Assembly (NCBI RefSeq): GCF_020037015.1
Contig: NZ_JAIQDE010000001.1
Location: 186,001 to 250,000, forward strand
DNA: 64,000 nt
Direction: 5' to 3'
From: Corallococcus sp. AS-1-6
GTDB lineage: Bacteria > Myxococcota > Myxococcia > Myxococcales > Myxococcaceae
Shown: piece by piece, positions 3,228-61,118 of the stretch
Numbering within the stretch: position 1 is the first letter of the stretch
How the letters are laid out: each line of letters opens with the position of its first letter
Notes under the pieces: generated by a model
Seen by the model: the letters and a program-made list of their open reading frames with translations, nothing else
Databases searched by the model: none
Told to the model about the DNA's origin: nothing
Made by a program: the position numbers and the translations under genes

Positions 3228-4793
3228 CTACTTCCAGGGCCGGGAGATGACGCAGGCGTTGATGCCGCCCACGCCCATGGACAGCTTGCCCGAGCAGCCC
3301 TGGGGCGCGGCCTCTTCCTTGTTGAAGACGAAGCGGCCGTGCACCTTGGCGATCTGCTTGTTGAGCTCCGGGGCGGAGAGCGGCGTGGGGTACACCTTGC
3401 CGGCCTCCGCGCCCAGGTACTGCGCGGTGAGTTCCCAGCCGCCGCCCGCGGACATGCCGTGGCCGAAGGTGCCCTTGCGCGCCGTAATCAAGACGGACTC
3501 CGGCAGCACGTCGCGCAGGTTCTGCACCTCCAGGAAGTCGCCCGGGGTGGCGGTGGCGTGCAGGTCCCAGGTGCCCACGTCCTGGGGCTGACAGCCGGCG
3601 GCGCCCAGCGCGTCGCGGATGGCCAGCGTGGGGCCTTCCTTGGACGGGGTGATGATGTGGTCCGCGTCCGCGGTGACGCCCACGGCCACGGGCTCCAGGC
3701 CCAGCGCCTTGAAGCCCTTCTGCGTGAAGTGCTCGTAGTCGCCCACCACCCACACCACCGCGCCTCCGGCGATGTGCGTGCCGCGCAGCGCGGTGAGGGG
3801 CTTGGACACGGCGGCGTCCGCGGAGATGACGCGCGCGTTGTAGAAGCCGCCCACCACCAGCGGGTTGGGCGCCGCGTCCGTCATGCCCAGCACCACGGCC
3901 TTCGCCTCACCCAGGCGGATGGCGTTCATGGCCAGCTTCAGGCCGTAGCCGAAGGACGAGCACGCGGCCACCGGCGCGAACGTCATGCCGGTGATCTGCC
4001 CCAGCATGGACACCTGGGACGCGGGCGTGTTGTGGATGTTCCACAGCACGTTGGAGGACACGGCGTTCCACGGCGGCTCGGGCGCGTTCCACTTCTTCTG
4101 CAGGCGCCCGTTGCGCGTGCGCTTCTCCTTGATGACGGAGAGCTTGGCGGACTCCACGTCGCCCTCGTCGGGCACGCCAATGGCTTCAATCTCGCGCAGC
4201 TCCTCCAGGTACTCGCGCAGCTCCGGCGAGCGGCCGGCCCAGAAGTGCCACCAGTCGTCCTCCGCCTTGTCGCGCTCCACCTCTTCGATGGTGGAGGGCT
4301 CCGGGGGCAGGCCGGGCAGGGGCTCGCGCGTCTCGCGCCACTGGCGCAGGGCGCCGTTGCGCTCCGGGGACGCCCAGAAGCGGTCCCACCGGCGCTGGGC
4401 GCGGTAGAGGTCCAGGGAGATGTGCTGGATGGTGGGCAGGTCGCCCAGGCCGGTGCCCACGTAGACGTGGGCCTTCGTGCCCAGCTCCTGGAGCTCCTTC
4501 TCGATGCCCGGGTTCTGCGCCAGCGACTGGATGAACGCGCCGATGGCGTACTGCGTGGGCTGCCCCATCTTCCGCTCCAACTGGGAGAAGCGGTTGGCGG
4601 GGAAGCGCGCGTCGATCCACGGCTTGTAGACCGCCAGGTCGAACTCGGGCGTGCCGACGAGGAAGTTGTCCGGACCGAAGCCGTTGAAGGGGGTCAGCCA
4701 GGTCTCGGATGACGCGAGGTTCCTGGCGAAGGCCTCGATGTTGGGGGAACGCGGGGCGACCACGCCCCAGCCGAAGATTCCGACTCTGCGCAC
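3228..4793 (-). CDS. Beta-ketoacyl synthase-family protein with a charged insertion
   Basis: Condensing-enzyme (thiolase-fold) protein of 521 residues, probably acting on acyl-ACP or an acyl-CoA in lipid or secondary metabolism. The catalytic triad of ketosynthases is visible: Cys278 in AACSSFGYG, His412 in HATATPGD, and His445 in KGTFGHGMSAGG. The start is a GTG at 4793, chosen because GGAGGA lies 7 bases upstream and the N-terminus VRRVGIFGWGVVAPRSPN matches the usual first strand. It is about 100 residues longer than FabF; the excess is a charged Trp-, Arg- and Glu-rich stretch at about 130-240, before the active-site cysteine. No ACP or reductase gene is adjacent, so the substrate is unknown. 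Confidence 0.85.
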   Translation of the reverse strand: MRRVGIFGWGVVAPRSPNIEAFARNLASSETWLTPFNGFGPDNFLVGTPEFDLAVYKPWIDARFPANRFSQLERKMGQPTQYAIGAFIQSLAQNPGIEKELQELGTKAHVYVGTGLGDLPTIQHISLDLYRAQRRWDRFWASPERNGALRQWRETREPLPGLPPEPSTIEEVERDKAEDDWWHFWAGRSPELREYLEELREIEAIGVPDEGDVESAKLSVIKEKRTRNGRLQKKWNAPEPPWNAVSSNVLWNIHNTPASQVSMLGQITGMTFAPVAACSSFGYGLKLAMNAIRLGEAKAVVLGMTDAAPNPLVVGGFYNARVISADAAVSKPLTALRGTHIAGGAVVWVVGDYEHFTQKGFKALGLEPVAVGVTADADHIITPSKEGPTLAIRDALGAAGCQPQDVGTWDLHATATPGDFLEVQNLRDVLPESVLITARKGTFGHGMSAGGGWELTAQYLGAEAGKVYPTPLSAPELNKQIAKVHGRFVFNKEEAAPQGCSGKLSMGVGGINACVISRPWK

Positions 4794-4822
4794 GGGTGTT
4801 TCCTCCGCCGCCCGGGGGAAGG

Positions 4823-6295
4823 CTACAGCGGCTGGATCTTGAGGTTGTCGAAGTGGACGCGCGTCTGCCAGCCGGAGAACCCGAAGTACTGGTTCCGGGG
4901 GCCGTAGAGCGGGGACGCGTCCTGGAGGGTGAGGAAGGGCTTGCCGTCCACTTCCCACGACAGGAGTCCGTCCCGCCGGGTGATTCGGAAGTGGTAGCGC
5001 TGGCCGGGCACCACCGCGGCGCCGTCGCGCACGGCGCGGTCGTGGGTGTGCTCGTGCTGGCGCGCGATGATGGACTGGGTGTTCTTCCAGCCGCCGAAGA
5101 TGAAGACGTAGCCGGTGGCGGTGTACTGCAGGCGCGGGTCACCCGCGTAGAAGGAGCGGCCGTCGCCCCACGCCTCCACCTTCATGTCGCCGTCCGGGCT
5201 GTCACCCCAGGCGTCGAACTCGATGACGGCGTTCTCCGGGATGGGCTTCTTCAGCCACACCGGGCGGTTGCCCACGTTCTGGACCACCAGGGCCCCGTCC
5301 TCCAGCTTCACGGCGGCGGGGTTCGTCACGTTCCACGCGTCACCCAGGGTGTCGCGGTTGAAGTCGTCCTCGGAGGGGCCCGGGGGCAGGGTGGGCTCCT
5401 GCTTCGCCACCAGGGTGGCGGGCAGGGAGTCCGGCGTGCCGATGCGCAGGTTGTCGAAGAACAACTGCGACTCCCAGCCGGACAGCCCCAGCCGGTCCTG
5501 CCCCCTGCCCTTCAGGGGGAAGGGGTCGTCCAGCTCCGCGACCGGTTGTCCGTCGATGGCCCACTTGAGCACGTTGCCGCGCCGCTCGATGCGCCAGTGG
5601 TACGTGCGGCCGGACTGGATGGGGGCGCCCACGCGGGACTCCACGCGCACCCGGGTGTCCTTCTTGAAGACGCCGGTGGCGACGAGGTCCGCGCCCTGGC
5701 CGCCGCCCTTCTCCGCGACGCGCGCGGCCCTGCGCTGGAGCGCCTCCAGGGCGGGGGCGTTGATGTCCTTCCGGGCGATGACGGACAGGCTGTTGTTCCA
5801 CCCGCCCTGGACCAGCACGTAGCCGGAGGCCGGGTCGCGGCCGTTGCCGAACAGCTCCACGCGGATGTCGCCCTCGGGGTACTCGGGGCGCACGTCGAAC
5901 TCCACCGCCACATCGTCCGGCAGCGCGGCCTGGAGCCACAGCGGGTTGTTCTTGGGCGCGGGGCCCAAGAGCTCCCCGTTCGTCACGCGCCAGTAGGCGC
6001 CGGTGGAGAAGAAGTCGCGCGAGACGACGGCCGGGTCGTTGAAGGGCTGCTCGTAGGGCACCTTGGCGGTGACGTCCGCCTGCCCCCGGAAGAGCGCGTA
6101 GTGGATGAGGGGGAGCTGGATGAAGGCGATGGCGCCCGCGAGGACGGCCCACCCCTTGCGGCTCAGGCCGGCGGGCTTGCGCCACCCTTCATGGGGCACG
6201 GCGGGCTGGGCGTCCGGGGACGGCGGGACGGAGGCCGCCGGGGGCGACCCTTCCTGCTTCTGCGTGTCCTTGTCCTTGCGGCTGGCCTGGCCCAT
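4823..6295 (-). CDS. Membrane-anchored protein with two concanavalin-like (DUF1080/LamG-type) domains
   Basis: A 490-residue protein. A polar N-terminus of about 45 residues is followed by one transmembrane helix (GWAVLAGAIAFIQLPLIHYA), which would leave the rest exported but anchored. The exported part has two homologous beta-sandwich domains; each carries a 'Y-x-F-I/V-x-GGW-x-N-T/S' motif and ends with 'FDNL(R/K)I', as in sugar-binding or 3-keto-disaccharide hydrolase-like domains. No catalytic residues can be assigned. The ATG at 6295 is the first start outside the upstream gene, but it lacks a good ribosome binding site. It lies between the ketosynthase and a membrane gene on the same strand. 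Confidence 0.72.
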   Translation of the reverse strand: MGQASRKDKDTQKQEGSPPAASVPPSPDAQPAVPHEGWRKPAGLSRKGWAVLAGAIAFIQLPLIHYALFRGQADVTAKVPYEQPFNDPAVVSRDFFSTGAYWRVTNGELLGPAPKNNPLWLQAALPDDVAVEFDVRPEYPEGDIRVELFGNGRDPASGYVLVQGGWNNSLSVIARKDINAPALEALQRRAARVAEKGGGQGADLVATGVFKKDTRVRVESRVGAPIQSGRTYHWRIERRGNVLKWAIDGQPVAELDDPFPLKGRGQDRLGLSGWESQLFFDNLRIGTPDSLPATLVAKQEPTLPPGPSEDDFNRDTLGDAWNVTNPAAVKLEDGALVVQNVGNRPVWLKKPIPENAVIEFDAWGDSPDGDMKVEAWGDGRSFYAGDPRLQYTATGYVFIFGGWKNTQSIIARQHEHTHDRAVRDGAAVVPGQRYHFRITRRDGLLSWEVDGKPFLTLQDASPLYGPRNQYFGFSGWQTRVHFDNLKIQPL

Positions 6296-49117: not shown

Positions 49118-50398
49118 CTACTCCCCGCCGTTCCGGACGGTGGGGGCCCGCGAAGGCGCGATGAAGCCCGAGTAGGCCATCCGGTTCGGTGAGCAGCGCC
49201 CGGGGTTGGTCACCTTGTCCGGTGTGGCGTTGCCCGTCATGGCGGCGCTGACCTCCTGCGGCGCGGAGGAGGGATGGGCCTCCAGGAAGAGCGCGACGAT
49301 GCCGGTGACATGGGGTGCGGCCATGGACGTGCCGCTCAGCGTTCGGGTCGCCGTGTCATCGCTGGCCCAGGCCGAGAAGATCTCCTCGCCGGGCGCGAAG
49401 ACGTCCACGCAGTCGCCATGGTTGGAGAAGGACGCCCGCCGGTCCACGGTGGTGGTGGCCCCCACGGTAATGGCCTCGGCGGTGCGCGCGGGAGAGCGCT
49501 TGCACGCGTCCTGGTTCTCGTTGCCCGCCGCCAGCACATACGTCACGCCCAACGTGATGGAGCGGCGCACGGCATCGTCGAGCGCCGCGTCCTCCCCTCC
49601 GCCCAGGCTCATGTTGGCCACCGCCGGGGACTGGTGGTGTTCGGTCACCCAGTCCACGCCCGCCACCACGCCCGCCGTCGTCCCGGAGCCCTCGCAGTCC
49701 AGCACGCGCACGGCGTGCAGCGACGCGCTCTTGGCGATGCCATACAGGTTGCCGCCCACCGTGGCGGACACGTGGGTGCCATGGCCGTTGCAGTCCACGC
49801 CGTCGCGACCGTCGCCGACGGCGTCGAAGGCGATGTCCGCCCGCCCGGCGAACTCCTGATGCGTGGGGCGCAGGCCCGTGTCGAGGACGTACACGTGCAC
49901 GCCCCGGCCCTGCGTCTGGTACTGGTAGCGCTGATCGAGCGGCAGGTCGCGCTGGTCGATGCGGTCAATCCCCCACGTCGCATCGGGCTGACTCTCGTCG
50001 AGCGTTACCGTGCCATTCTGCTGCACGTACTCCACCTCGGGCGCGGCGGACATGGCGCGGGCCTGCTGCTCGCTCATGCGCGCGGCGAAGCCCCGCAGCG
50101 CGTGCGTGTACACGTGGAAGGTCTTGCCGCCGAAGCGCTGGGTCAGGCGCCGCGCGACCACCGCCGGCTGCTGCGCGGCGTCCCCTTCCTGGGGTTCATT
50201 GAGCACGACGACGTATTCACCGGAGACCGGCTTCGCGACCGTGAGGAACTTCTCGCGCACCGGTGTCTGCACGGACGCGGCGCCACGGCAGGGTGTGTCA
50301 CCGGGTGGCGGTATGGGATTGCCCGTGCTCTGGCACGCGGACAGCAGGAACAGCACGCAGGCGGACGAGACCGTCCGCGACAGGAGCTTCAGCGACAT
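49118..50398 (-). CDS. Secreted subtilisin-family (S8, proteinase K-like) lipoprotease
   Basis: A 426-residue precursor: signal with lipobox LSAC, an I9-type inhibitory propeptide (about 60-130), and a catalytic domain with the triad Asp in LDTGLRPTHQ, His in NGHGTHV, and Ser in SGTSMAAPHVTG. The NMSLGGG motif and several cysteines are typical of the proteinase-K subgroup. Myxobacteria secrete many such proteases to feed on other cells. The lipobox suggests tethering to the outer membrane. The ATG at 50398 has GGGGGA upstream. Confidence 0.92.
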   Translation of the reverse strand: MSLKLLSRTVSSACVLFLLSACQSTGNPIPPPGDTPCRGAASVQTPVREKFLTVAKPVSGEYVVVLNEPQEGDAAQQPAVVARRLTQRFGGKTFHVYTHALRGFAARMSEQQARAMSAAPEVEYVQQNGTVTLDESQPDATWGIDRIDQRDLPLDQRYQYQTQGRGVHVYVLDTGLRPTHQEFAGRADIAFDAVGDGRDGVDCNGHGTHVSATVGGNLYGIAKSASLHAVRVLDCEGSGTTAGVVAGVDWVTEHHQSPAVANMSLGGGEDAALDDAVRRSITLGVTYVLAAGNENQDACKRSPARTAEAITVGATTTVDRRASFSNHGDCVDVFAPGEEIFSAWASDDTATRTLSGTSMAAPHVTGIVALFLEAHPSSAPQEVSAAMTGNATPDKVTNPGRCSPNRMAYSGFIAPSRAPTVRNGGE

Positions 50399-50491
50399 GG
50401 GTCCCCCGGGGTGACACTTCCCAGGGAAGTAACGCATTCCGAATCAAAGCAGTTGCTGCCCCGCGGGGCCGCGAAACGTCCGTTCAATGGC

Positions 50492-51418
50492 TCAGAGCAG
50501 CCCGTCCAGGATGAGCCCACGGCGCTGGGAGTCCTGCATCTGCGCGCCGTCGTGGGCCACCACCAGGTGCAGCTCGGGCGCGGTGCGCAGCAGGTCGTGC
50601 AGCCATCGCAGTTGGTGTGCCATCGCCTGTGCATCCTCGCCGCCCAGCCAATTGGTGATCCGAGGGTGCATCCTCGGGAGCCGGATGTTGTCCTGGTGCC
50701 AGGCCACGTCACCGACGAGCAGGAACTCGCGCCCGTCGACGAGCCGCACGTACACCAACTGGGTGCCGGGCGTATGGCCCGGGGCCTTGATGAGGACCAC
50801 GCCGGGACGCAGCAGGTGCATTCGCTCGTACTGGAGCGGAGTGAGTTTCGCGCGCAGCTCCGGGGTGAAGCCGGCCTCCTGCGCGAGCGGGCTTCGCAGT
50901 TGTTCGTCCGTGAGGTGGACCTTGCTCGCCACCTCGTCCAGGTATGGCGAATGCGCGATGCCCGCGCAGTGGTCGAAGTGCTCGTGGGTGACGACCGTCG
51001 CGTCCGCGCGGCGCAGCGCCTCCTGGACCCGGGTGTAGTCCGCGGCGTCGAACTCCGAGCCGGGGAACTGGTCCTGCTGCGTCTTCTCGTCGCTCACGAC
51101 GTCCACCATCACGGTGCGGCCGTCGGCATAGACGACCTGGTACGCGTAGAAGTCGAAGGTGGCCTCTGCGAAGCCGCTGCCGGCCACCACGAGCGCGTGG
51201 GGCACTCCAGAGGCCCGGCTCACGTGCTGGCTGCGCAATGCGGTGGGGAGCGGCGCGCCGGTGGAGACGGCCAGGGCCCGGATGGCGCCCAGGTCGGCGT
51301 CGAAGCGCGAGGTCTCCGGTACGCTCACGTCGCTCAGTCCCACGGCCGCGACGACGACCAGCACCAGCAACAGGGCCGCGACAACCAGGCCCACGCGACG
51401 CCACAGGGTTCCCTTCAT
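50492..51418 (-). CDS. Membrane-anchored metallo-beta-lactamase-fold hydrolase
   Basis: A 308-residue protein with one N-terminal helix (VGLVVAALLLVLVVVAAVGL) and a metallo-beta-lactamase fold. The zinc motif HxHxDH is in VVTHEHFDHCAG, with further ligands in KAPGHTPG and LVGDVAWHQD. This places it among general MBL hydrolases, whose substrates range from lactones to phosphodiesters; the substrate here is unknown. The start at 51418 is preferred over an in-frame start 27 bases upstream because the helix begins here. Confidence 0.88.
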   Translation of the reverse strand: MKGTLWRRVGLVVAALLLVLVVVAAVGLSDVSVPETSRFDADLGAIRALAVSTGAPLPTALRSQHVSRASGVPHALVVAGSGFAEATFDFYAYQVVYADGRTVMVDVVSDEKTQQDQFPGSEFDAADYTRVQEALRRADATVVTHEHFDHCAGIAHSPYLDEVASKVHLTDEQLRSPLAQEAGFTPELRAKLTPLQYERMHLLRPGVVLIKAPGHTPGTQLVYVRLVDGREFLLVGDVAWHQDNIRLPRMHPRITNWLGGEDAQAMAHQLRWLHDLLRTAPELHLVVAHDGAQMQDSQRRGLILDGLL

Positions 51419-51788
51419 GGCGGGTATTTTGCCGACTCCCGCCATTGACCTGCGTGAAATTTCCGGGGTGTCCGCACCTGCGATTCAACGAGGGGCAGTG
51501 GAGGGCGGTAACGTCTTCCTGCCGCTGCACGCCCCTCCGGAGGGAAAGGTGCATCGCCGCCCATGCCTCCGTCCCGAGGGGCGAGGGCATGGATGCGGTG
51601 GACCAGCAGTCGCAAATCCTGCTGCGCTGGCAGTCCGGCACTTCCCAATCCCCTTACAGTGACTCGCTCGTGGATCTCGTGGAGTTGGGGTGAGGGGTGG
51701 CTTGAGACCCATGTTTAATGCGAGCTCCTATCACACGGCCCTCAAAGTCCGGTGCTGATATGGTCCAGTGGCTGCTTGCGGAGGGGAA
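51419..51788. other. Intergenic gap without a convincing gene
   Basis: 370 bases between the divergent MBL gene and the kinase. A 34-codon frame at 51589-51693 with GAGGG upstream is the only candidate and is weak. GC content drops after about 51700, marking the edge of the lower-GC kinase gene. Confidence 0.5.
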
Positions 51789-52703
51789 ATGAATAACTTG
51801 ATTGATGGTCGATATTCACCGATCAGTCTCCTTGGTCAGGGAGGCTTTGGTCATGTCTATCTTATGGAAGATGTTGTTACGGGCAGTCGAGTTGCCCTGA
51901 AGATGCTTGCGAACGCATCCGTTGATGCCGTTGAGCGATTTCGGCGAGAGGCTAGAATTTTGAATGCCATTGCTGGGAATATGCATGTTGTTCAGATTTT
52001 GATGTTTAACATGGCGCATAGTCCGCCATATATCGTGACCGAGTATTGCGAGGGTGGATCGCTTCGCACGTGGGTTGGAAATAGAAATTGGAAAATGACT
52101 GCGGGTGCAATCGCTCATGCGTGCGTTGGGCTTTCGGTTCTGCACTCTGCCGGTGGGTTTCATAGAGATCTGAAGCCGGACAATATGCTTGTTTCGCCCG
52201 TTGGTGGTGGTGGTGTCTTGATTAAGCTTGCTGACTTTGGGCTTGCGCGGAGGCCGCTAATGTCGGATTCCCCGATGACGAGGCATGGGGCTGGGACAAA
52301 CGGATATATCGCTCCTGAGGTTCTTGCTGGGGCTGAATATCAGTCTAGTGCTGATGTTTACTCTCTTGGTATTGTGGCTGCTGAGCTTTTGACGGGCGAG
52401 AGGTCCGCTCGATTGCTGAATGACGTTCAGATGCCGGCGAAGATGCGAGCCCTGATTTTGGACATGCTCTCACAGGTCCCAACGGCTCGCCCCACTGCGG
52501 CCGCTGTGGCGGCGTCGCTCAATTTGCTACTGACATCTCCGCCTCCTGCCGTGCAGTCGAGCGATTCTGGAATGAGCGGACTTTGGGCTGGTGGGCTTCT
52601 GGTCGGAGGGCTGCTGTTGGCTTTGGCGGCATTCAGCGGCGGCACCGGCGGTGGGGCGGGTGGGGGCGGTGGTGGCGCAGGAGGTGGGGGCGGTGGTGCG
52701 TGA
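51789..52703 (+). CDS. Minimal Hanks-type serine/threonine kinase with Gly-rich C-terminus
   Basis: A 304-residue kinase: glycine loop GQGGFGHVY, lysine in VALKML, catalytic HRDLKPDN, DFG in LADFGLARR, and APEVLAG, all intact. After about residue 255 there is a short linker, one transmembrane helix (GLWAGGLLVGGLLLALAAF), and a tail of almost only glycine with alanine. Membership of this family is clear; the substrate is not. The base composition is clearly lower in GC than in neighbours and the third positions are A/T-rich, suggesting horizontal transfer. GAGGGGAA precedes the ATG at 51789; an in-frame upstream start at 51768 is less likely. Confidence 0.88.
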   Translation: MNNLIDGRYSPISLLGQGGFGHVYLMEDVVTGSRVALKMLANASVDAVERFRREARILNAIAGNMHVVQILMFNMAHSPPYIVTEYCEGGSLRTWVGNRNWKMTAGAIAHACVGLSVLHSAGGFHRDLKPDNMLVSPVGGGGVLIKLADFGLARRPLMSDSPMTRHGAGTNGYIAPEVLAGAEYQSSADVYSLGIVAAELLTGERSARLLNDVQMPAKMRALILDMLSQVPTARPTAAAVAASLNLLLTSPPPAVQSSDSGMSGLWAGGLLVGGLLLALAAFSGGTGGGAGGGGGGAGGGGGGA

Positions 52704-52807
52704 GTGTCTTCGCTAAACGACCGCGCATGAATCCCGATCGGCTCGGAGGATAGGCAGGCGCTGGGCGCTGAAGGAAAGGGGCAGGGGCTCGCGCTGTTCG
52801 GCCTTGT

Positions 52808-53907
52808 GTGCGCAAGTACCGGATGAAGAAGCGAGCCCTGCCTCAGGGAAGGAAACAGCTACGCCTGCGATGTCCTGACCGCAGGCGGCTGATTCGCTGG
52901 AGAGAGAGGACTAGCTGCCCGCTCACCCTGCGGCGGTGCATGGCGGTAGCGAAGGTGGCCAGTGGTCAGTCACGGGCGCAAGCCGCGCGGCAGCCGCTGT
53001 GCGCCACGTCCACGGTGGTGTCCGCGGTTCAGCGCTTTCAGCGCTCAGGCCGAGAAGGCCTCTTGGACGGGCGCGCTCAGAATGGGCAGCGCAAAGTGGA
53101 CGAGCGATTCCGGCGGACGTTGTGCCGGGTGCTGGAAGGGACGCCGCAAGCAGTCCGGTTGGCGGCGCACGACGTGAACGCGCGAGTTGCTGGTTCGCGA
53201 GGTGGAGAGGCGAGGCCGGGTACGCGTCTCGCCCGCGACGATGGGACGCGCACTGGCCTCGATGGGAGCCCAGAGAAGGCGTCCGCGTCCCGTGGTGCGC
53301 TGCCCTCGGCCGGAGCGCCGACGCCGATGGCGCCTCTGGCAGTTGAAATGCCGTGCGGCCTTCGCCCGGCCCGGCGAGCCCGTATTTTTCGAGGATGAGA
53401 TGGACGTGCCCCTCAACCCGGAAATCGGCCCCGACTGGACGTTGCCTGGACAGCGCGGAGAGGTCGTCACCCCGGGCAACAACCAGAAGTGTTTCGTGGC
53501 GGAGGAGCTGGATGCGAGCATGGCTCGGGTGACTTGGGTGCAGGGGGAGAGGAAGACGAGTGCTCTCTTCATCGACTTGGTGCGCGCCGTGGACGCCGCC
53601 CATCTCAGAGCGAAGCGTCTGCATTTCATCCTCGACAACGCCGCCACCCACTCCAGCAAGAAGACGCGCAAAGGCGCTGGAGGCACTGGGTGAGCGGCCG
53701 GTGCTGCACTTCCTGCCGCCGTACTGCCCGGAGGGCAACTGGATTGAGCGCCTGTGGTGGGACGTGCACGCCAACGTCACCCGCAACCATCGCTGCAAGA
53801 AGATGGAGGCGCTCATGGCAGAGGTGGACGCCTACCTCGACGCGCGCAACACGCAGAAGACGGCCAGCCCCTTGCTGCGCGCCGCACCTGCTCGACGCGC
53901 AGCGTGA
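52808..53907 (+). mobile_element. Decayed IS630-family transposase
   Basis: Transposase fragments in three frames. The first (52808-about 53150) holds the N-terminal helix-turn-helix region (LRRCMAVAKVASGQSRAQAA). The second, after a frameshift and an in-frame TGA at 53175-53177 in a place where tryptophan is expected, holds FEDEMDVPLNPEIGPDW and ILDNAATHSSKKTRK, carrying the first two catalytic Asp. After a second frameshift near 53680, the third frame holds PPYCPEGNWIERLWWDVH with the catalytic Glu. All DDE residues are recognisable but the gene is broken. Terminal repeats were not found. It abuts the end of the ABC-ATPase gene. Confidence 0.85.
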
Positions 53908-53934
53908 GACCGTTCGAGAATTACGAGCGATCGC

Positions 53935-55806
53935 TTAGGACTGATCAGAAGGGAACAGCCCAGCGCGTCCCCGTCTAGAGTTGCCTGAGAATATCTGGAC
54001 GCTCATGTGCGGCCTGAGCACCTCGGGCGGATCGATGTTCTCCACAATGATGAATTGACCAACCTCGCTCAGACTAGCAAGGTGCTCAAAAAAGTAGTCC
54101 TTTAGCGGGCTTCGTGCGACGGCCTCTTCGTCTTCGGCGAGTTTTCCGCTCTTGGACCGTAGGGGGTCCCGATACGTAAGGAGTGGGGTATCGAGGATGA
54201 GGAACCCCGGATGAGGGAGGTTCCGCTCCTTGCAAAATAGGAGGAGCGCCACCTTGAAAGCAGCATGCGTGATCGCGCGGACTCCCTTCCCGTTAGCGCG
54301 ACGCTTCTTTCCATCGATGATCAGGTCTTGACTCTTCTCATCGAAGGATACGTGGCACTTGCCAGGAAAACGCCATGCACGAAGAACATCACTGACGACT
54401 TGAGCGAAGTCATGCGAGGCCGTTCCTTCGCTTGCGGTCAAAGGACTGCGCGCCCTGCGCTGCACTTTGGCTCGTGCTAGTTCATCCCGCTTTTGAATAA
54501 GTGCGTGCTTTTGTTCTAGGAGGGCTAACCCGCGACTTGTTCGCTCCCGCGCATTGAGCAAGTCCGCAAAGAGGTTCTGCTTCCCAGAAACCTGCGGGGT
54601 AAGGCTGTCCACTTCAGCCTCAATCTGCGAAAGACGGGCTCTCGCAGCAGGGAGTGCCTCGGTCAGAGCGGTCTGCTCATGCGCGAGCGCCGCCATCGTT
54701 TTTGTCAAATCGGCTCGTTGGCGGCGGACCTTATCCGATTCGACAAGGGCTGCAGCGCGGATGCTCTCAATCTCGCCAAGCGGATGGACGTGTTTCTGCT
54801 CCGTAGTGGCGGCACCGCACAACGGACAGTCCTTTTCTCCATCAAGCGGGAGGATAAATCCGGCTTCATCTAGCGCTTCGAGGCGTTCGATGTCCGATTG
54901 GTAGATTTGGTCCAGTTGGCCGAACCGAGCCAGGTTTGCTTGTACCTCTGCCAATCGTTGTTCGTGGCGCGTAAGGTCAAGGGATGCGTTACGTTTCTCG
55001 GCAAGTAACCCTCGAATTGAGCCCTGTGCAGCTTGCAACTCAGCCTGGAGAGCATCGAACGGTGTCACTAACTTCTCGTGCTGCGCATCCAGTTCGGCGG
55101 CGTCTGGATAGTTCTCAGTGAGGTCCACATCAATGGCAGCGAGCATTGCGTCAAAGACCTCAATTTTTGCAGCGGTCGAGGTCTTCTGGGTTTTTATGTC
55201 CGGAATAGGCGTGATGGCGCGATCGTCTATCCCTGTAAGAAGAAGTTTGAAGACACTTCGCTCTAGAGTTTTCCTTGTGTTTTGCCCGCTGTGGATCGGC
55301 GATGCTTCACTCCACATAGATGTTTCGTCCACAATGCAGTAGCGCGCGATGTCCCGAAAGCTCAGGCTTTTCTTGGCGCCATTCGCATCGATCACAAGCT
55401 GGCGGTCCGTCAAGCCAATGAGCGCAAGCAGGAACTGAGAGATGTTGTCGTCCCGGTCTGAGTCATGATTGGGAGCAAGGCGGCGAAGTTCGGTAACGGG
55501 CTCGTCTCCGCTGGAGAGGCCCGCGACCAATTGAATAGCGCCTCCAGCGAGCGCTCGGACCAATGTCGAGTCAGCGAGATTCGGGGCATTGAGGCCAAGC
55601 CACGCCCGGTCGTAGCCAACTCGCTCCTCTATATCTGGGAGTTCGCTCCCAGCGCCAAGTGCAAAGTCCACAGTCTTGACGGTGAATGACTTGCCCGTGT
55701 TTGAAGCTCCCAAAAGCAGGTTGAGCCCCTCGCTGAAATGCAGCTTGGCAGGTGGCTTTTCTGGTCCCGTGTATGAGAGGTGGCGGAGTAGCAGTCGCGA
55801 AGTCAC
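53935..55806 (-). CDS. Rad50/SMC-like ABC ATPase of a three-component conflict system
   Basis: A 623-residue ATPase. Walker A is GASNTGKS (33-40). The middle (about 250-450) is a coiled coil interrupted by a zinc-hook-like CPLCG (327-331). The C-terminal half has a degenerate signature region (NGKGVRAITHAAF, 505-517) and Walker B-like FLILDTPLLTY (535-545). The start is a GTG at 55806 that overlaps the preceding stop as GTGA; no start further upstream avoids overlapping the middle gene. It resembles the ATPase of ABC-3C defence-type systems, where ATP-driven DNA or end sensing triggers the effector. It is the last gene of the operon. Confidence 0.85.
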   Translation of the reverse strand: MTSRLLLRHLSYTGPEKPPAKLHFSEGLNLLLGASNTGKSFTVKTVDFALGAGSELPDIEERVGYDRAWLGLNAPNLADSTLVRALAGGAIQLVAGLSSGDEPVTELRRLAPNHDSDRDDNISQFLLALIGLTDRQLVIDANGAKKSLSFRDIARYCIVDETSMWSEASPIHSGQNTRKTLERSVFKLLLTGIDDRAITPIPDIKTQKTSTAAKIEVFDAMLAAIDVDLTENYPDAAELDAQHEKLVTPFDALQAELQAAQGSIRGLLAEKRNASLDLTRHEQRLAEVQANLARFGQLDQIYQSDIERLEALDEAGFILPLDGEKDCPLCGAATTEQKHVHPLGEIESIRAAALVESDKVRRQRADLTKTMAALAHEQTALTEALPAARARLSQIEAEVDSLTPQVSGKQNLFADLLNARERTSRGLALLEQKHALIQKRDELARAKVQRRARSPLTASEGTASHDFAQVVSDVLRAWRFPGKCHVSFDEKSQDLIIDGKKRRANGKGVRAITHAAFKVALLLFCKERNLPHPGFLILDTPLLTYRDPLRSKSGKLAEDEEAVARSPLKDYFFEHLASLSEVGQFIIVENIDPPEVLRPHMSVQIFSGNSRRGRAGLFPSDQS

Positions 55807-56306
55807 GCGCTTGGGCCCTCCGAGCCTGAACTCCCTTGAAATTCGACAGCCCAGCGACCGACCTTGTCGGCCACGTAGCGTTCGATCGTGCTGTCGTCCA
55901 TTTGAGCCAAATGGCCCATCAGCCACCGAGCACGTTCTTGCAGGCGCTGGGCGTAAGGGGTTCTCAAGACTTCAACGAAGGCGGGAGCGTCGTCGCTGGC
56001 TTGGTAGCGGATGCCGTAGGTGTCCACTGTGGTGTCCACAAGGTGCAAGCGCCGCATGAGGTTCAGACCTTGCTGAACCGTCCGCCTGCGTACGAGCAAT
56101 TCTCCGGTACGCTCGGGGATGTCTGGGTGGAGGCTCGGAGGCCCGTTAAGGTCTGCCGTGTGGACCACGAGGTGATCGAACCAAGTGAGTTGGAGGAGAT
56201 CTAGAGGCCGCGGATGCGAGGCTTCAAGAATGAAGACCGCGCGAACGCCGGTTTCTAGTGCGCTGTTGAAGGGGCGGGGCCCGGCGCGGCGCCGCCCATC
56301 ACTCAC
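55803..56306 (-). CDS. Small middle component of the ABC three-component operon
   Basis: A 167-residue soluble protein, rich in helices, with RPLDLLQLTWFDHLVVHT and a winged-helix-like middle (RRRTVQQGLNLMRRLHLVDTTVD). Both ends overlap its neighbours by 4 bases as GTGA: the GTG start at 56306 with the nuclease gene stop, and its own stop with the ATPase start. The order nuclease, small helical protein, ABC ATPase is that of ABC-3C systems, in which the middle component is thought to link the other two. The start is chosen on the overlap. Confidence 0.72.
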   Translation of the reverse strand: MSDGRRRAGPRPFNSALETGVRAVFILEASHPRPLDLLQLTWFDHLVVHTADLNGPPSLHPDIPERTGELLVRRRTVQQGLNLMRRLHLVDTTVDTYGIRYQASDDAPAFVEVLRTPYAQRLQERARWLMGHLAQMDDSTIERYVADKVGRWAVEFQGSSGSEGPSA

Positions 56307-57307
56307 TTGTTCCACTTGAGTCGCTCCTCATTCGCGAAATGGTGGCAGTAGCCCTGCTTGATAGGTACTCGCGCATATTTGGCGAGAGGTCCTGAGGGTT
56401 GGACGTTTGCGGCCTGAGTCATCACCGCTTCGACCCGTTTGAGGGTCGTTGAGTGCACAGAACCGTGAGTGTCGATGACACCGTGGAAGATGTCGTCTTC
56501 AAGTTGGTCCAAGCTTTCAGGCGCCGTGTTGTCTCGATAGAAACGCTGGAAGGCGTCGGCCTCAAAAAAGCGTTCGCGTTGTCGCACGAGGTGCGGCCCA
56601 TGGGCCGCATGGCTCGCGACTTGTTCGTGAGTTGCGTATACGCAGTTATCGCACTGCCCGTACACGTCAAGTAGTTGGCGAATGTAAGGGGTTTCTTCGA
56701 CCTGAACTTCCGTCGGCACAGAGCCTTTCGGAGGGGGGCCGGGGTCGTCGCCAAAATGCTTCGCAAGGACCGGCTTGATGCTTGGGTCGACGAGCATCTT
56801 GTCAAGCGAGATGACGTGCACCCGGCTGAAGTCGTAGGCCTGGATAAATTGCTCAAGCGCAGGAACCAGCGGGATCTCTTTGTCCTCTGCGATTTTGCTC
56901 ATGCAGTGCGCCTCCCAGTTGGTCAGGAGCGACTTCTTGAGGTCGCTGGGTTTGTAGACCAGTTCTTGTAGAGGCCGATTGATGCCGCGAGGAGCAACGA
57001 AGTAGTAGTTGCGAGGCGTAGTGAACTGCCCCTTGAATGCGTAAAAGAGCAGTTTGCCTAACTCAAGATGGGCCGTCGCAGGTCCAAGGCGCTCGCGATA
57101 CTGCTTGCACTGATAGTTGTCCCAGTGTCCTTCATGGCGAGCCGCGCTACAAAATCCAACGACGTCACGCCCAAGATCTCCCGAGCCGGAAAAGCGCTCG
57201 ACCTCAAAGTACCCTAGGTGCTTTGCCCGTTCGGTGACCCAGTCGTAAACGAAGAGTTCGAGTTCCTCGCCGACTAGCTCCAGGATTCTGCGGTCGTTCC
57301 GGATCAT
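56303..57307 (-). CDS. Mrr-like restriction-endonuclease-fold effector of the ABC three-component operon
   Basis: A 334-residue protein and the first gene of the operon. The N-terminal 75 residues carry an Mrr-type PD-(D/E)xK arrangement: Glu14/Glu15, Asp48 in GDLGRDVV, and Gln66-x-Lys68 in NYQCKQY. The rest is helical, with CDNC (about 210), two histidine-rich segments, and a C-terminal block (YARVPIKQGYCHHFANEERL) likely to bind the partner proteins. It lacks a SAM or helicase domain. The ATG at 57307 is the only good start. Cleaving DNA of invading elements is predicted from the fold and the context. Confidence 0.8.
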   Translation of the reverse strand: MIRNDRRILELVGEELELFVYDWVTERAKHLGYFEVERFSGSGDLGRDVVGFCSAARHEGHWDNYQCKQYRERLGPATAHLELGKLLFYAFKGQFTTPRNYYFVAPRGINRPLQELVYKPSDLKKSLLTNWEAHCMSKIAEDKEIPLVPALEQFIQAYDFSRVHVISLDKMLVDPSIKPVLAKHFGDDPGPPPKGSVPTEVQVEETPYIRQLLDVYGQCDNCVYATHEQVASHAAHGPHLVRQRERFFEADAFQRFYRDNTAPESLDQLEDDIFHGVIDTHGSVHSTTLKRVEAVMTQAANVQPSGPLAKYARVPIKQGYCHHFANEERLKWNK

Positions 57308-57444
57308 TTATGGGCTGGACCATACTCGACGTCGGGGGCATCGCCGTAGTCCCATGTTGGCAGAGCCTTTAGCCCCTATTCCAGTAGCGACGAAGGTCGG
57401 ACATCTGCCGGGTTGAAGAGGCACGGGGACGCGGCCATGGGGCA

Positions 57445-57840
57445 GTGAAGAAGGATGACGGCTGGCGGGTGCCGGACGAACTTTGGCGACGCATCAAGCC
57501 GCTGCAACCGGCCCGTTCAGAGCATCCGTTGGGATGCCATAATCCGCGAGTGCCCGACCGGCAGGCCCTGGACGTGATTTTCCTGGTTTTGCGCACTGGG
57601 ATGGAGTGGGGCGTGTTGAAGGCCACTGGCTTGTGCCATCCGTCCTCAGCCTATCGACGTTTCCGGGAGTGGTTGCCCGCCGGTGTCCTCCGCGAGTTCG
57701 GGCGCTAAGGGCTACTGGCCTACGACCACTTGGCGAAGATTGATTGGATGTGGCTGGCGCTGGACGGCACTCAGGGTAAGGCGCCGCTGGTTAGGTTTCT
57801 CGGTGATGAGGTCCTTCTCCTCTCACTCGAACCGGGGCGG
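57445..57840 (+). mobile_element. IS5-family transposase 5' remnant
   Basis: About 87 codons (57445-57708) encode the N-terminal region of IS5-type transposases (WRVPDELWRRIKPLQPARSEHP then DVIFLVLRTGMEWGVLKA). A TAA stop at about 57708 is followed in the same frame by more homologous sequence (LLAYDHLAKIDWMWLALDGTQ), then homology ends. The catalytic domain is missing. This remnant flanks the conflict operon on the side opposite the IS630 remnant. Confidence 0.8.
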
Positions 57841-57854
57841 TAGCATCGGCCGCC

Positions 57855-58772
57855 ATGGATTCACCTTCCGACCTGCCCTCCGCCGCCCATTCGCCGGTCC
57901 CCACGTCGCCGCTGCGCGTGTGGACGGTCCTGGTTTCGTTCGCGCTCCTGGCGACGGCAATCATCGTCGGGGGCGTCATCTCCGCCAGCATCGCGATGGC
58001 GATGGAGATGTTCCGCACGGGAGTGAAACCCCAGGACACGGCAGCCATCCAGGCCCTCACGGAGGGACTCAGGTCGATGCCCTGGCTGATGGTCGCGGCC
58101 GTGATGACGTCCAGCCTCTCGGGGTTGGTCGCCGCGCTCATGGGCGGGTTCTTGTCTCCCATGCCGTTGATGCAGCGGCTGCGCCTGGGCGCGGGAGCAC
58201 CGCTTCCTGCATGGGCCTGGGTGGCCGCGCTGGTGGGCTGCTTCACGATGGGACAGGCGATGGAGAGCCTGTCGGTGCTCGTGGGTGTATGGAATTACGG
58301 GGCGTCGCTCAAGGGATTGCAGACCGCGAGCCAGGGCTCTGTCGCGACCTTCGCGGCGTTTCTGTTCTTTGGCGCGCTGGTCGCGGGCACGGCGGAGGAG
58401 CTCTTCTTCCGCGGGTATGTGCAGACGCGACTCGTGGAACGCTGGGGACGCACCGCGGGAATCGTGGGAGCCGCGACGCTCTTTGGCATCCTGCACTTCG
58501 ACCCCATCCACAGTCCCATGGCCCTGCTGATGGGCCTGTTCCTGGGCTGGCTCGCGGAGCGCACGGGGAGCCTGCGGCTGCCCATCTTCGTCCATGTCTT
58601 CAACAACCTGACCTCGTTCCTGCTGTCCCGCTATGCGCCCTCCACCACGGAGCTGCCGGCGTCCGTTCACGTGACGTTGCTGGCGGCGTGCTCGCTGGCG
58701 TTCGTGGGAGTTTTGATGGCGCTTCGGCGGGTGGGGGCCCGGCCGTCAGAGCCCGTGCTCGCAGGGCCCTGA
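57855..58772 (+). CDS. CPBP-family intramembrane glutamic endopeptidase (intact copy)
   Basis: A 305-residue membrane protein with about seven helices. The CPBP/ABI motifs are intact: EELFFRGYVQTRLVERWGR, with the catalytic glutamates, and HFDPIHS plus FVHVFNNL with the conserved His and Asn. Homologues cleave membrane substrates, prenylated proteins or peptides, or provide immunity. It is highly similar to the pseudogene at 43134-43991 on the same strand. The ATG at 57855 follows the IS5 remnant directly. Its stop is 7 bases from the convergent sulfatase-like gene. Confidence 0.88.
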   Translation: MDSPSDLPSAAHSPVPTSPLRVWTVLVSFALLATAIIVGGVISASIAMAMEMFRTGVKPQDTAAIQALTEGLRSMPWLMVAAVMTSSLSGLVAALMGGFLSPMPLMQRLRLGAGAPLPAWAWVAALVGCFTMGQAMESLSVLVGVWNYGASLKGLQTASQGSVATFAAFLFFGALVAGTAEELFFRGYVQTRLVERWGRTAGIVGAATLFGILHFDPIHSPMALLMGLFLGWLAERTGSLRLPIFVHVFNNLTSFLLSRYAPSTTELPASVHVTLLAACSLAFVGVLMALRRVGARPSEPVLAGP

Positions 58773-58779
58773 ACGCAGC

Positions 58780-60882
58780 TCAAGGGCCCACGGCACCACG
58801 AGCTTCGCCCGTCGCATCCGGCAACTCCGCCGCGAGCTTCGCCCTCAGCGTGGCCACGATGTCCGGATGGTCACCCGCCACGTCGCGCACCTCTGACGGA
58901 TCCGACACCGTGTCGAAGAGCTGCACGCGCACCCCATCCGGCGTGGGCAGCTCCAACAACTTCCACCGTCCCAGATACAACCCCCGGTGCCGCGCCCGGC
59001 GCACCGGCCCCTCCCACTCCGGCTTGAGCGCGATCTCCCCCGTATCGCCCTCCACCATCGCGATCTCATACAGCCACGGATACGGCATGCGCACCGTCTG
59101 GTACGCCTGCCCATCCCGGTCGCTGAACCACACGTCCGTCTCAATCAACGCGGGCACATCCGGCAGCGCCCTGGGCTCCGGCCCCGGCCGCGCGAGCGGC
59201 GCCAACGAGCGCCCCCGGAACGACTCCGGCGCGGGCACGCCCAGCAAGTCCAACACCGTCGGCGCCACGTCCAGCGACCGCGCCCGCTGCGTCACCTGCC
59301 GCCCTGACGCCACCTGCCCGGGCAGCCGCACCACGAATGGAATCCGCAGCCCCGCGCTGCCCCACAGGTGGTCGCCGTGGCCCTGGCCCAGCCCTTCATC
59401 CTCCAGGTGCTCGCCATGGTCCGAGACCAGCACCACCAGCGTGTCCTCCCACCGGCCCCGCCGCTCCAGGTCCTCGCGCACGTTCCCCACCAACCCATCG
59501 AACGTGCGCACCCCCGCGTCGTAGTTCGCTCCCAGCGCCGCGACGTCCTCCGGCGTGGTCGCGGGCGCGTCCGGATCCACCTCCATCCGAGGCGTCGCCC
59601 CGAAGCGCCACGGCCCCCGATATCCCCGCTCCACGTACCTGCCCTCCAGCGGCCACGGCGCGGCGTACGGGAAGTGCGTGGACGACGCGAACACCACCAG
59701 CGCGAACGGCGCGTCCTCCGGCAACCCGTCCAGCACGTGCCGCACCCGCGCGCGCAGCGGGGCAGGGTCCGTCAGCTCCGGGAACTCGCCCCGTTCCTTG
59801 AACAGCCCCGGCGCCAGCGCCGTCCACGGCAGCAGCGCCACGTGGGTGATGAGCATCCGCTGCCGCACCAGGTCCGGGAAGCGGAAGTCCGGCGCGGACA
59901 CCTTCTGGAACCCATACGGGAACCGCGAGAAGTGGTCCCCCGCGTAGTCCGCCACCACCGCCGTTCTGTACCCCTGCGCCTCCAGCGCTGTCGCCAGCGT
60001 GGTGAGCTTCGTCTCGCGCGCCTCGCGCCCCACCAGCGTGTGCACCACCGGGTGCTCGCCCGCGTACTGCGACGTCAGCAACGTCGTCCATGACGGCGCC
60101 GTGCGCGGCACCTGCACCACCGTGTCATGGAAGCGCGTCCCTTCCTCCATCAGCCGGTCGATGTTCGGCGACGTGGACCGCGAATAGCCGTTGCCCGACA
60201 GGTGGTCCGGCCTGAGCCCGTCCGACGCCAGGATGAGCAGGTTCGGCCGCGCACGCCCGGCGGACTCCGGCCCCGGCTCCGCCCGCGTCAGCCCCAGCCC
60301 CGTGAAGCCCGCCACCGCCGCCGCGGCCGTCACGCCCCCCAGCACGCCGCGCCAGCGGGGTGACTCCGCCAACCCCCGTCCCACCACCGCCAGCACGCTC
60401 AACACCGGCAGCACCAGCGCCGCCATGCCCCAGCCCGACGGCTGCGTGCCGCTCAGCCCCCGCAGCACCGCCGCCGTCACCTCCGAGCGCGCGTACAGCG
60501 TCGCCGCGTACAGGTGCGGATGCCGCGCCATGTCCGCCGCCACCAGGAAGCCCTCCACCACCAGGCACCCCAGGCCGCTCAGCCAGAACACCGCGCGCCG
60601 GCTCCGCTCCGCCGCCCACAGCCCGGCCCCCAGCAGCGCCCCCAGCACCAACCCCACCACGCAGTACGCGCCAATCAGCCGCGCCACCTGCCACAGCACC
60701 ATGCTCCGCCATTCACTCCACACGTACTCCGTGACGACGCGGCTCTCGTTCCCCTGGTAACCCAGTTGCATGTTCAGCAGGGCACAGAGCGTGTAGAGCA
60801 GCAGGAAGACGAGCAGGCCCGCCCGGCAGCCCAGCAGGAGGGCGCGAGCGCGCGTCGGCGGTGTACGGGCGGAGGTGGGCAT
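58780..60882 (-). CDS. Membrane-anchored sulfatase-fold enzyme with Thr in the nucleophile position
   Basis: A 700-residue protein: five N-terminal helices (about 15-195), then an alkaline-phosphatase-superfamily domain starting with LLILASDGLRPDHLSGNGYSR. The usual sulfatase C/S-x-P-x-R nucleophile site is replaced here by RTAPSWTTLLTSQY, with Thr261 in the nucleophile position as in phosphoglycerol or phosphoethanolamine transferases. The metal-binding DHGEH is in LVSDHGEHLED. The helices plus the Thr suggest an envelope transferase or phosphodiesterase rather than a formylglycine sulfatase. The ATG at 60882 is used. It is divergent from dnaE. Confidence 0.85.
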   Translation of the reverse strand: MPTSARTPPTRARALLLGCRAGLLVFLLLYTLCALLNMQLGYQGNESRVVTEYVWSEWRSMVLWQVARLIGAYCVVGLVLGALLGAGLWAAERSRRAVFWLSGLGCLVVEGFLVAADMARHPHLYAATLYARSEVTAAVLRGLSGTQPSGWGMAALVLPVLSVLAVVGRGLAESPRWRGVLGGVTAAAAVAGFTGLGLTRAEPGPESAGRARPNLLILASDGLRPDHLSGNGYSRSTSPNIDRLMEEGTRFHDTVVQVPRTAPSWTTLLTSQYAGEHPVVHTLVGREARETKLTTLATALEAQGYRTAVVADYAGDHFSRFPYGFQKVSAPDFRFPDLVRQRMLITHVALLPWTALAPGLFKERGEFPELTDPAPLRARVRHVLDGLPEDAPFALVVFASSTHFPYAAPWPLEGRYVERGYRGPWRFGATPRMEVDPDAPATTPEDVAALGANYDAGVRTFDGLVGNVREDLERRGRWEDTLVVLVSDHGEHLEDEGLGQGHGDHLWGSAGLRIPFVVRLPGQVASGRQVTQRARSLDVAPTVLDLLGVPAPESFRGRSLAPLARPGPEPRALPDVPALIETDVWFSDRDGQAYQTVRMPYPWLYEIAMVEGDTGEIALKPEWEGPVRRARHRGLYLGRWKLLELPTPDGVRVQLFDTVSDPSEVRDVAGDHPDIVATLRAKLAAELPDATGEARGAVGP

Positions 60883-61118
60883 CCTGGGGCAGCGTGGTCA
60901 CGAATCCCACGGCGGCCACCCCACGCCCGCGGGGAGTGCCCACGCCCGGACGGACGGGGGGCCGGAATTCCGCTCCGGGTGTCTCCCGGGCCGGTTTTCC
61001 GGGCCCCGCACGCGCCCGTCCCGCTTGTTTCCTCCGGCCCCGTCACTGGACTGGCGAGCAGGGGTTGCGGGCTCTAGTGTTCAGGCGCCTCTTTCTTCAC
61101 CGGGAGCCGGAACGCCCA

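Follow-up and report, generated by a model that had tools for sequence, protein, structure and literature searches.

Three genes of Corallococcus sp. AS-1-6, located in the 64,000-nucleotide stretch of DNA that was analysed (hereafter the window), almost certainly constitute a Lamassu (ABC-3C) defence system, whose nuclease effector is probably Mrr-like, as judged from their sequences. The locus is, on the same grounds, an ordinary copy of a widespread and already catalogued system: a first-pass annotation of this DNA had the family right, and was wrong in its claim of novelty. The resemblance to ABC-3C systems noticed by this annotation extends to each of the components, since PADLOC LmuA, LmuB, and LmuC as well as Pfam CTD6 and MC2 were all matched, and the Lamassu entry of PADLOC-DB 2.0.0 (PDLC03852, PDLC03863, and PDLC03871; Pfam CTD6 and MC2) comprises the same families over nearly full length.

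The operon is read on the minus strand, from 57307 to 53935, in the order LmuA, LmuC, LmuB, i.e., effector, middle component, and ATPase (Table 1). That this is the gene set and order of ABC-3C systems, as originally proposed, is borne out by the PADLOC and Pfam family matches and by the identical order in relatives; comparison with Lamassu relatives gave the same order and orientation, with no notable difference. The two consecutive GTGA overlaps said to couple the three genes can both be read on the minus strand. LmuC may start at either of two GTG codons, at 56315 or 56306, the former giving a 13-nt overlap with LmuA. For the third gene, 55926 is the start by the open reading frame (ORF) listing alone, and the overlapping GTG at 55806 matches the start found in relatives.

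Table 1. Features of the Lamassu operon and of its surroundings in the window.
Feature	Position	Strand	Details
Insert at variable chromosomal site	51482..57815	.	blastn homology to closest relative stops before and resumes after
Ser/Thr protein kinase with Gly/Ala-rich tail	51768-52703		in low-GC insert beside operon
Transposase pieces HTH_29, DDE_3	52808..53907	+	three overlapping ORFs, several frames
LmuB, SMC/Rad50-like ATPase	53935..55806	-	623 aa, GTG start
GTGA overlap, LmuC stop / LmuB start	55803..55806	-	
LmuC / middle component MC2	55803..56315	-	170 aa from GTG 56315; 167 aa from GTG 56306
GTGA overlap, LmuA stop / possible LmuC start	56303..56306	-	
LmuA effector	56303..57307	-	334 aa; Pfam CTD6, PADLOC LmuA, AF2 model
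IS4/IS5-family transposase fragment, DUF4096	57445..57708	+	

A wide scan, with one genome per species, gave 186 confirmed relatives, of which 80 were examined. LmuC lies directly behind LmuA in all 80 of these loci, and LmuB was found in 77 of them, directly behind LmuC in 76, counts that are not independent since several loci are near-identical. L032 and L033 coincide with L028 and L030. The three loci without LmuB are L079, which ends just behind LmuC, L038, where about 1.5 kb is left without LmuB, and L097, a full-length locus with a shortened LmuC match. In L098, the LmuB match begins 328 bases behind LmuC, and in L051, L063, and L064 a gene is split across two ORFs. By a script test, a 4-base overlap is present at the LmuA/LmuC junction in 34 of the 80 loci and at the LmuC/LmuB junction in 53 of 77; such coupling is thus common, not universal. 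Among the names in the record titles are Proteobacteria, Edaphobacter and Granulicella (Acidobacteria-type), the cyanobacteria Phormidesmis and Stenomitos, Desulfocapsa, and Myxococcus. The two closest share 61-69% identity per protein with the window's operon and correspond to loci on contigs titled Myxococcus.

The effector LmuA matches its PADLOC profile (PDLC03852, E 2.3e-93) over residues 5-332, i.e., nearly its full length, and its C-terminus (residues 205-332, E 1.1e-31) corresponds to Pfam CTD6, described there as 'C-terminal domain 6 of the ABC-three component (ABC-3C) systems'. The N-terminus is predicted to have a PD-(D/E)xK (Mrr-like) nuclease-type fold with residues E17, D48, Q66, and K68. 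The D48...Q66xK68 nuclease motif pointed out by the first-pass annotation is present, and these three residues, together with E17, D44, C321, and H322, are invariant in the 78 aligned relatives (from the 80 loci, two ORFs being left out as not found or short). No Pfam nuclease domain was matched in the window's LmuA, even at E <= 10; among 36 aligned members, all match CTD6, whereas Mrr_cat is hit weakly, and in 11 of them only (0.0018 at best). In NCBIfam, LmuA found no match. Against solved structures, its sequence gave two weak, unrelated matches and its profile three weak matches to tubby proteins, none of them credible.

An AF2 model of LmuA, made from 36 sequences (mean pLDDT 95.1), has solved LmuA chains as top matches both in Foldseek and in a second structural comparison. 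In its C-domain, 114 residues superpose on Salmonella LmuA (9hqu_C) at 2.6 A (Z 10.7). Superposition of the full-length model on the top solved chains gives an rmsd of 13.7-17.2 A, so that the good fit is confined to single domains, as would be expected of the model if domain placement differs. In the structural comparison, the ten rows below the LmuA chains are mostly restriction nucleases (Z 8.1-9.6), which fit the N-domain and include 1y88 (Z 9.6), LlaBIII (9.5), and MspJI (8.8).

These comparisons also bear on the possibility that the effector nuclease of this Lamassu system resembles Cap4 and not Mrr. Cap4 chains come directly after LmuA in the Foldseek list (ranks 5 and 6) and reach Z 6.5-7.0 in the second comparison, but the three restriction-type nucleases just cited score higher, if with modest Z values, and the weak Mrr_cat matches in the aligned members also speak against Cap4. 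This reading is unlikely. Mrr-like and Cap4 enzymes are both PD-(D/E)xK nucleases, and the choice between them therefore matters little for the mechanism. The operon was also set against known systems. With the solved Lamassu complexes of Salmonella enterica (9hqu, 9hqx, 9hr5), Vibrio cholerae type II (9uxl, 9uxh, and related entries), and LmuABC 9ny5 and 9nxx, the operon shares the LmuA C-domain, the LmuC fold, and the LmuB ATPase; it differs in that the nuclease domain of its effector scores nearer to restriction-type nucleases. The Lamassu-Mrr subtype, as named in PMC12447246, has an Mrr-type effector by name, and the likeness to the window's operon is one of description only.

The middle component is likewise assigned by sequence profiles: LmuC corresponds to Pfam MC2 (ABC-3C middle component 2, E 3.3e-43) and to PADLOC LmuC (PDLC03871, E 3e-53, residues 9-160); its alignment left out two of the 80 ORFs, which were not found or were short. 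In the second structural comparison, its model (mean pLDDT 84.1) matches three solved LmuC chains with Z 10.2, 10.0, and 9.7, ahead of winged-helix regulators at 9.4 and below, a narrow lead (10.2 vs 9.4). Foldseek gave no match to this model at E <= 0.001, and placed RPC62 and a MarR protein above an LmuC chain, which ranked third. Searched by sequence against solved structures, LmuC mostly recovered designed armadillo-repeat proteins (residues about 110-147), with weak methyltransferase and Tet4 rows, all of which were taken as spurious; its profile found no match among solved structures, nor did LmuC in NCBIfam.

The third protein, LmuB, matches PADLOC LmuB (PDLC03863) with E 4.2e-164 over residues 5-620, and a profile built with six relatives matches the solved DUF3732 chains 9hqu, 9uxl, and 9ny5; in NCBIfam, only below-cut-off matches of SMC, Rad50, and coiled-coil type were obtained. 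LmuB carries a Walker A motif (GASNTGKS), the zinc-hook CPLCG at 327-331, a conserved GKGVR, and a Walker B motif (LDTP). The description of this protein as a Rad50-like ATPase with a zinc-hook is therefore upheld, Cys327 and Cys330 being invariant in all 69 aligned relatives, as are Gly38 and Lys39 of the P-loop (11 of the 80 loci were left out, LmuB being not found or its ORF short). According to a review, a zinc hook is found in many, but not all, Lamassu LmuB members, and the Walker-B Glu of Lamassu is 'generally' changed to Gln (PMC10586767, section 9 for the latter). The solved 9hqu chain indeed has Gln after the Walker-B Asp in a HMMER alignment; in contrast, the residue at this place (LmuB 538-542) is Thr in the window; among the 69 aligned relatives, 54 have Ser there and 15 have Thr, and none has Glu or Gln. 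It is conceivable, as a tentative reading of this alignment, that the CTD6/MC2 branch of Lamassu has an LmuB with uniform Ser/Thr in place of the Walker-B Glu, as a separately evolved second route to slow or absent ATP hydrolysis, and hence a sensor that might fire once and irreversibly. No paper combining LmuB, Walker B, and glutamate was found in the open-access literature searched.

Within the phylum, LmuA profile hits occur in 14 of 195 genomes (this one included); those in 8 genomes are strong (E <= 6e-86) and those in the other 6 are weak (E 3.9e-21 to 3.2e-4). MC2 is found in exactly the 8 genomes with a strong LmuA match; neither LmuA nor MC2 was matched in 14 control genomes. The three-gene order is kept in the 7 other genomes with strong LmuA, with LmuB running off the contig in one of them. 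The weak matches do not enter the counts of loci; the strongest of them (G042, locus L031) has no relative of the window's three proteins (tblastn, 1e-3) and may represent an effector that carries a different C-terminal domain. In the Corallococcus genome itself, the window's own copy is the one LmuA relative at E <= 0.001. In addition, 144 of 72,556 plasmid records match LmuA and 149 match LmuB, and one of 50,697 phage records matches LmuA. A search of the open-access literature found no paper joining Lamassu with Myxococcus.

A separate observation concerns one of the related loci (L066, 780-11002, in Delftia), in which 7.7-10.2 kb around a related LmuABC is 99.88-99.98% identical to L067 (a MAG), L068 (Azospirillum), L069 (Comamonadaceae), and L070 (Variovorax). 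This near-identity may reflect either recent transfer or contamination. In L066, the shared stretch also encodes an integrase of phage type, together with a DUF1016/YhcG nuclease and a DUF932 protein. At 3928-4923 of this locus, a second Mrr_cat protein (6.8e-9) is encoded immediately upstream of LmuA, overlapping its start, and may act as an additional, accessory effector in this branch.

The operon was probably acquired horizontally. When positions 50001-61000 of the window are compared with two related genomes by blastn, homology ends at 51481-51482 and resumes at 57799-57816, and the unmatched sequence between the same two genes amounts to 1.58 kb in the closest relative and 4.4 kb in the other, so that the site is variable; a clean empty site was not found in these two genomes. 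GC content, taken in 1-kb windows, is low over the kinase gene and the operon (0.55-0.60), higher over the left transposase pieces (0.66-0.68), and 0.68-0.74 outside the insert. At the place where the window carries the Ser/Thr kinase, one relative has a gene for a PP2C-type phosphatase. Of the decayed transposons described on both sides of the operon, transposase pieces are present on each side (those on the left we take to be IS630-like); their decay is itself likely, with programmed frameshifting as a possible explanation of the split frames. These broken neighbours, in pieces or truncated, are what might suggest that the three genes are themselves a decayed, non-functional Lamassu remnant caught between broken transposons. 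Such a reading is highly improbable, as none of the three frames is interrupted and each has the length usual in its family, the conserved catalytic residues that were checked are present, and the translational overlaps are intact.

Also highly improbable is an undescribed ABC-3C subtype, which the first-pass annotation had suggested on account of the isolated Mrr domain of the nuclease and of a C-terminal block rich in His and Cys (considered here as metal-binding): C219, C222, and C321-H322-H323, along with several His around 226-240, do occur in this part of LmuA, but the block is the CTD6 domain matched by every aligned member, Cys is found at position 219 in 4 of 78 relatives and is outside the six commonest residues at 222, His is found at 239 in 44 of 78, the PADLOC profile, dating from 2023, spans nearly the whole protein and with CTD6 and MC2 already covers the architecture, and 18 of the 20 LmuA plasmid matches listed (of 144) already bear names such as 'ABC-three component system protein' and/or 'middle component 2'. 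A His/Cys zinc block was accordingly discarded as a separate feature, the cluster being unconserved apart from the invariant C321-H322.

For the catalogued Lamassu system with a probable Mrr-like effector, a mode of action can be proposed by analogy. A pair of LmuB ATPases, linked through the zinc hook, would watch for features of phage or plasmid DNA, such as ends or hairpins. At rest, LmuC and LmuB would hold LmuA through its CTD6 domain; engagement of DNA would then release LmuA, allowing its assembly into a tetramer. The tetramer would cut DNA, so that the invader is stopped or the cell killed. Such a mechanism is described for other Lamassu systems in two reviews (PMC10586767, PMC12904381), and titles of PDB entries from other Lamassu systems speak of a 'nuclease sequestration state' and of an 'LmuA nuclease tetramer bound to DNA duplex'. 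From these systems, we infer for the window's operon an anti-phage or anti-plasmid function with activation of an LmuA tetramer on DNA sensing.

The Ser/Thr found at the Walker-B position of LmuB would offer a simple way to ask if Lamassu sensors in general have lost ATP hydrolysis. As to the bacteria themselves, the operon is a further copy, in the family of Myxococcus, of a defence system that is already catalogued, and again illustrates the movement of such operons between distant bacteria.
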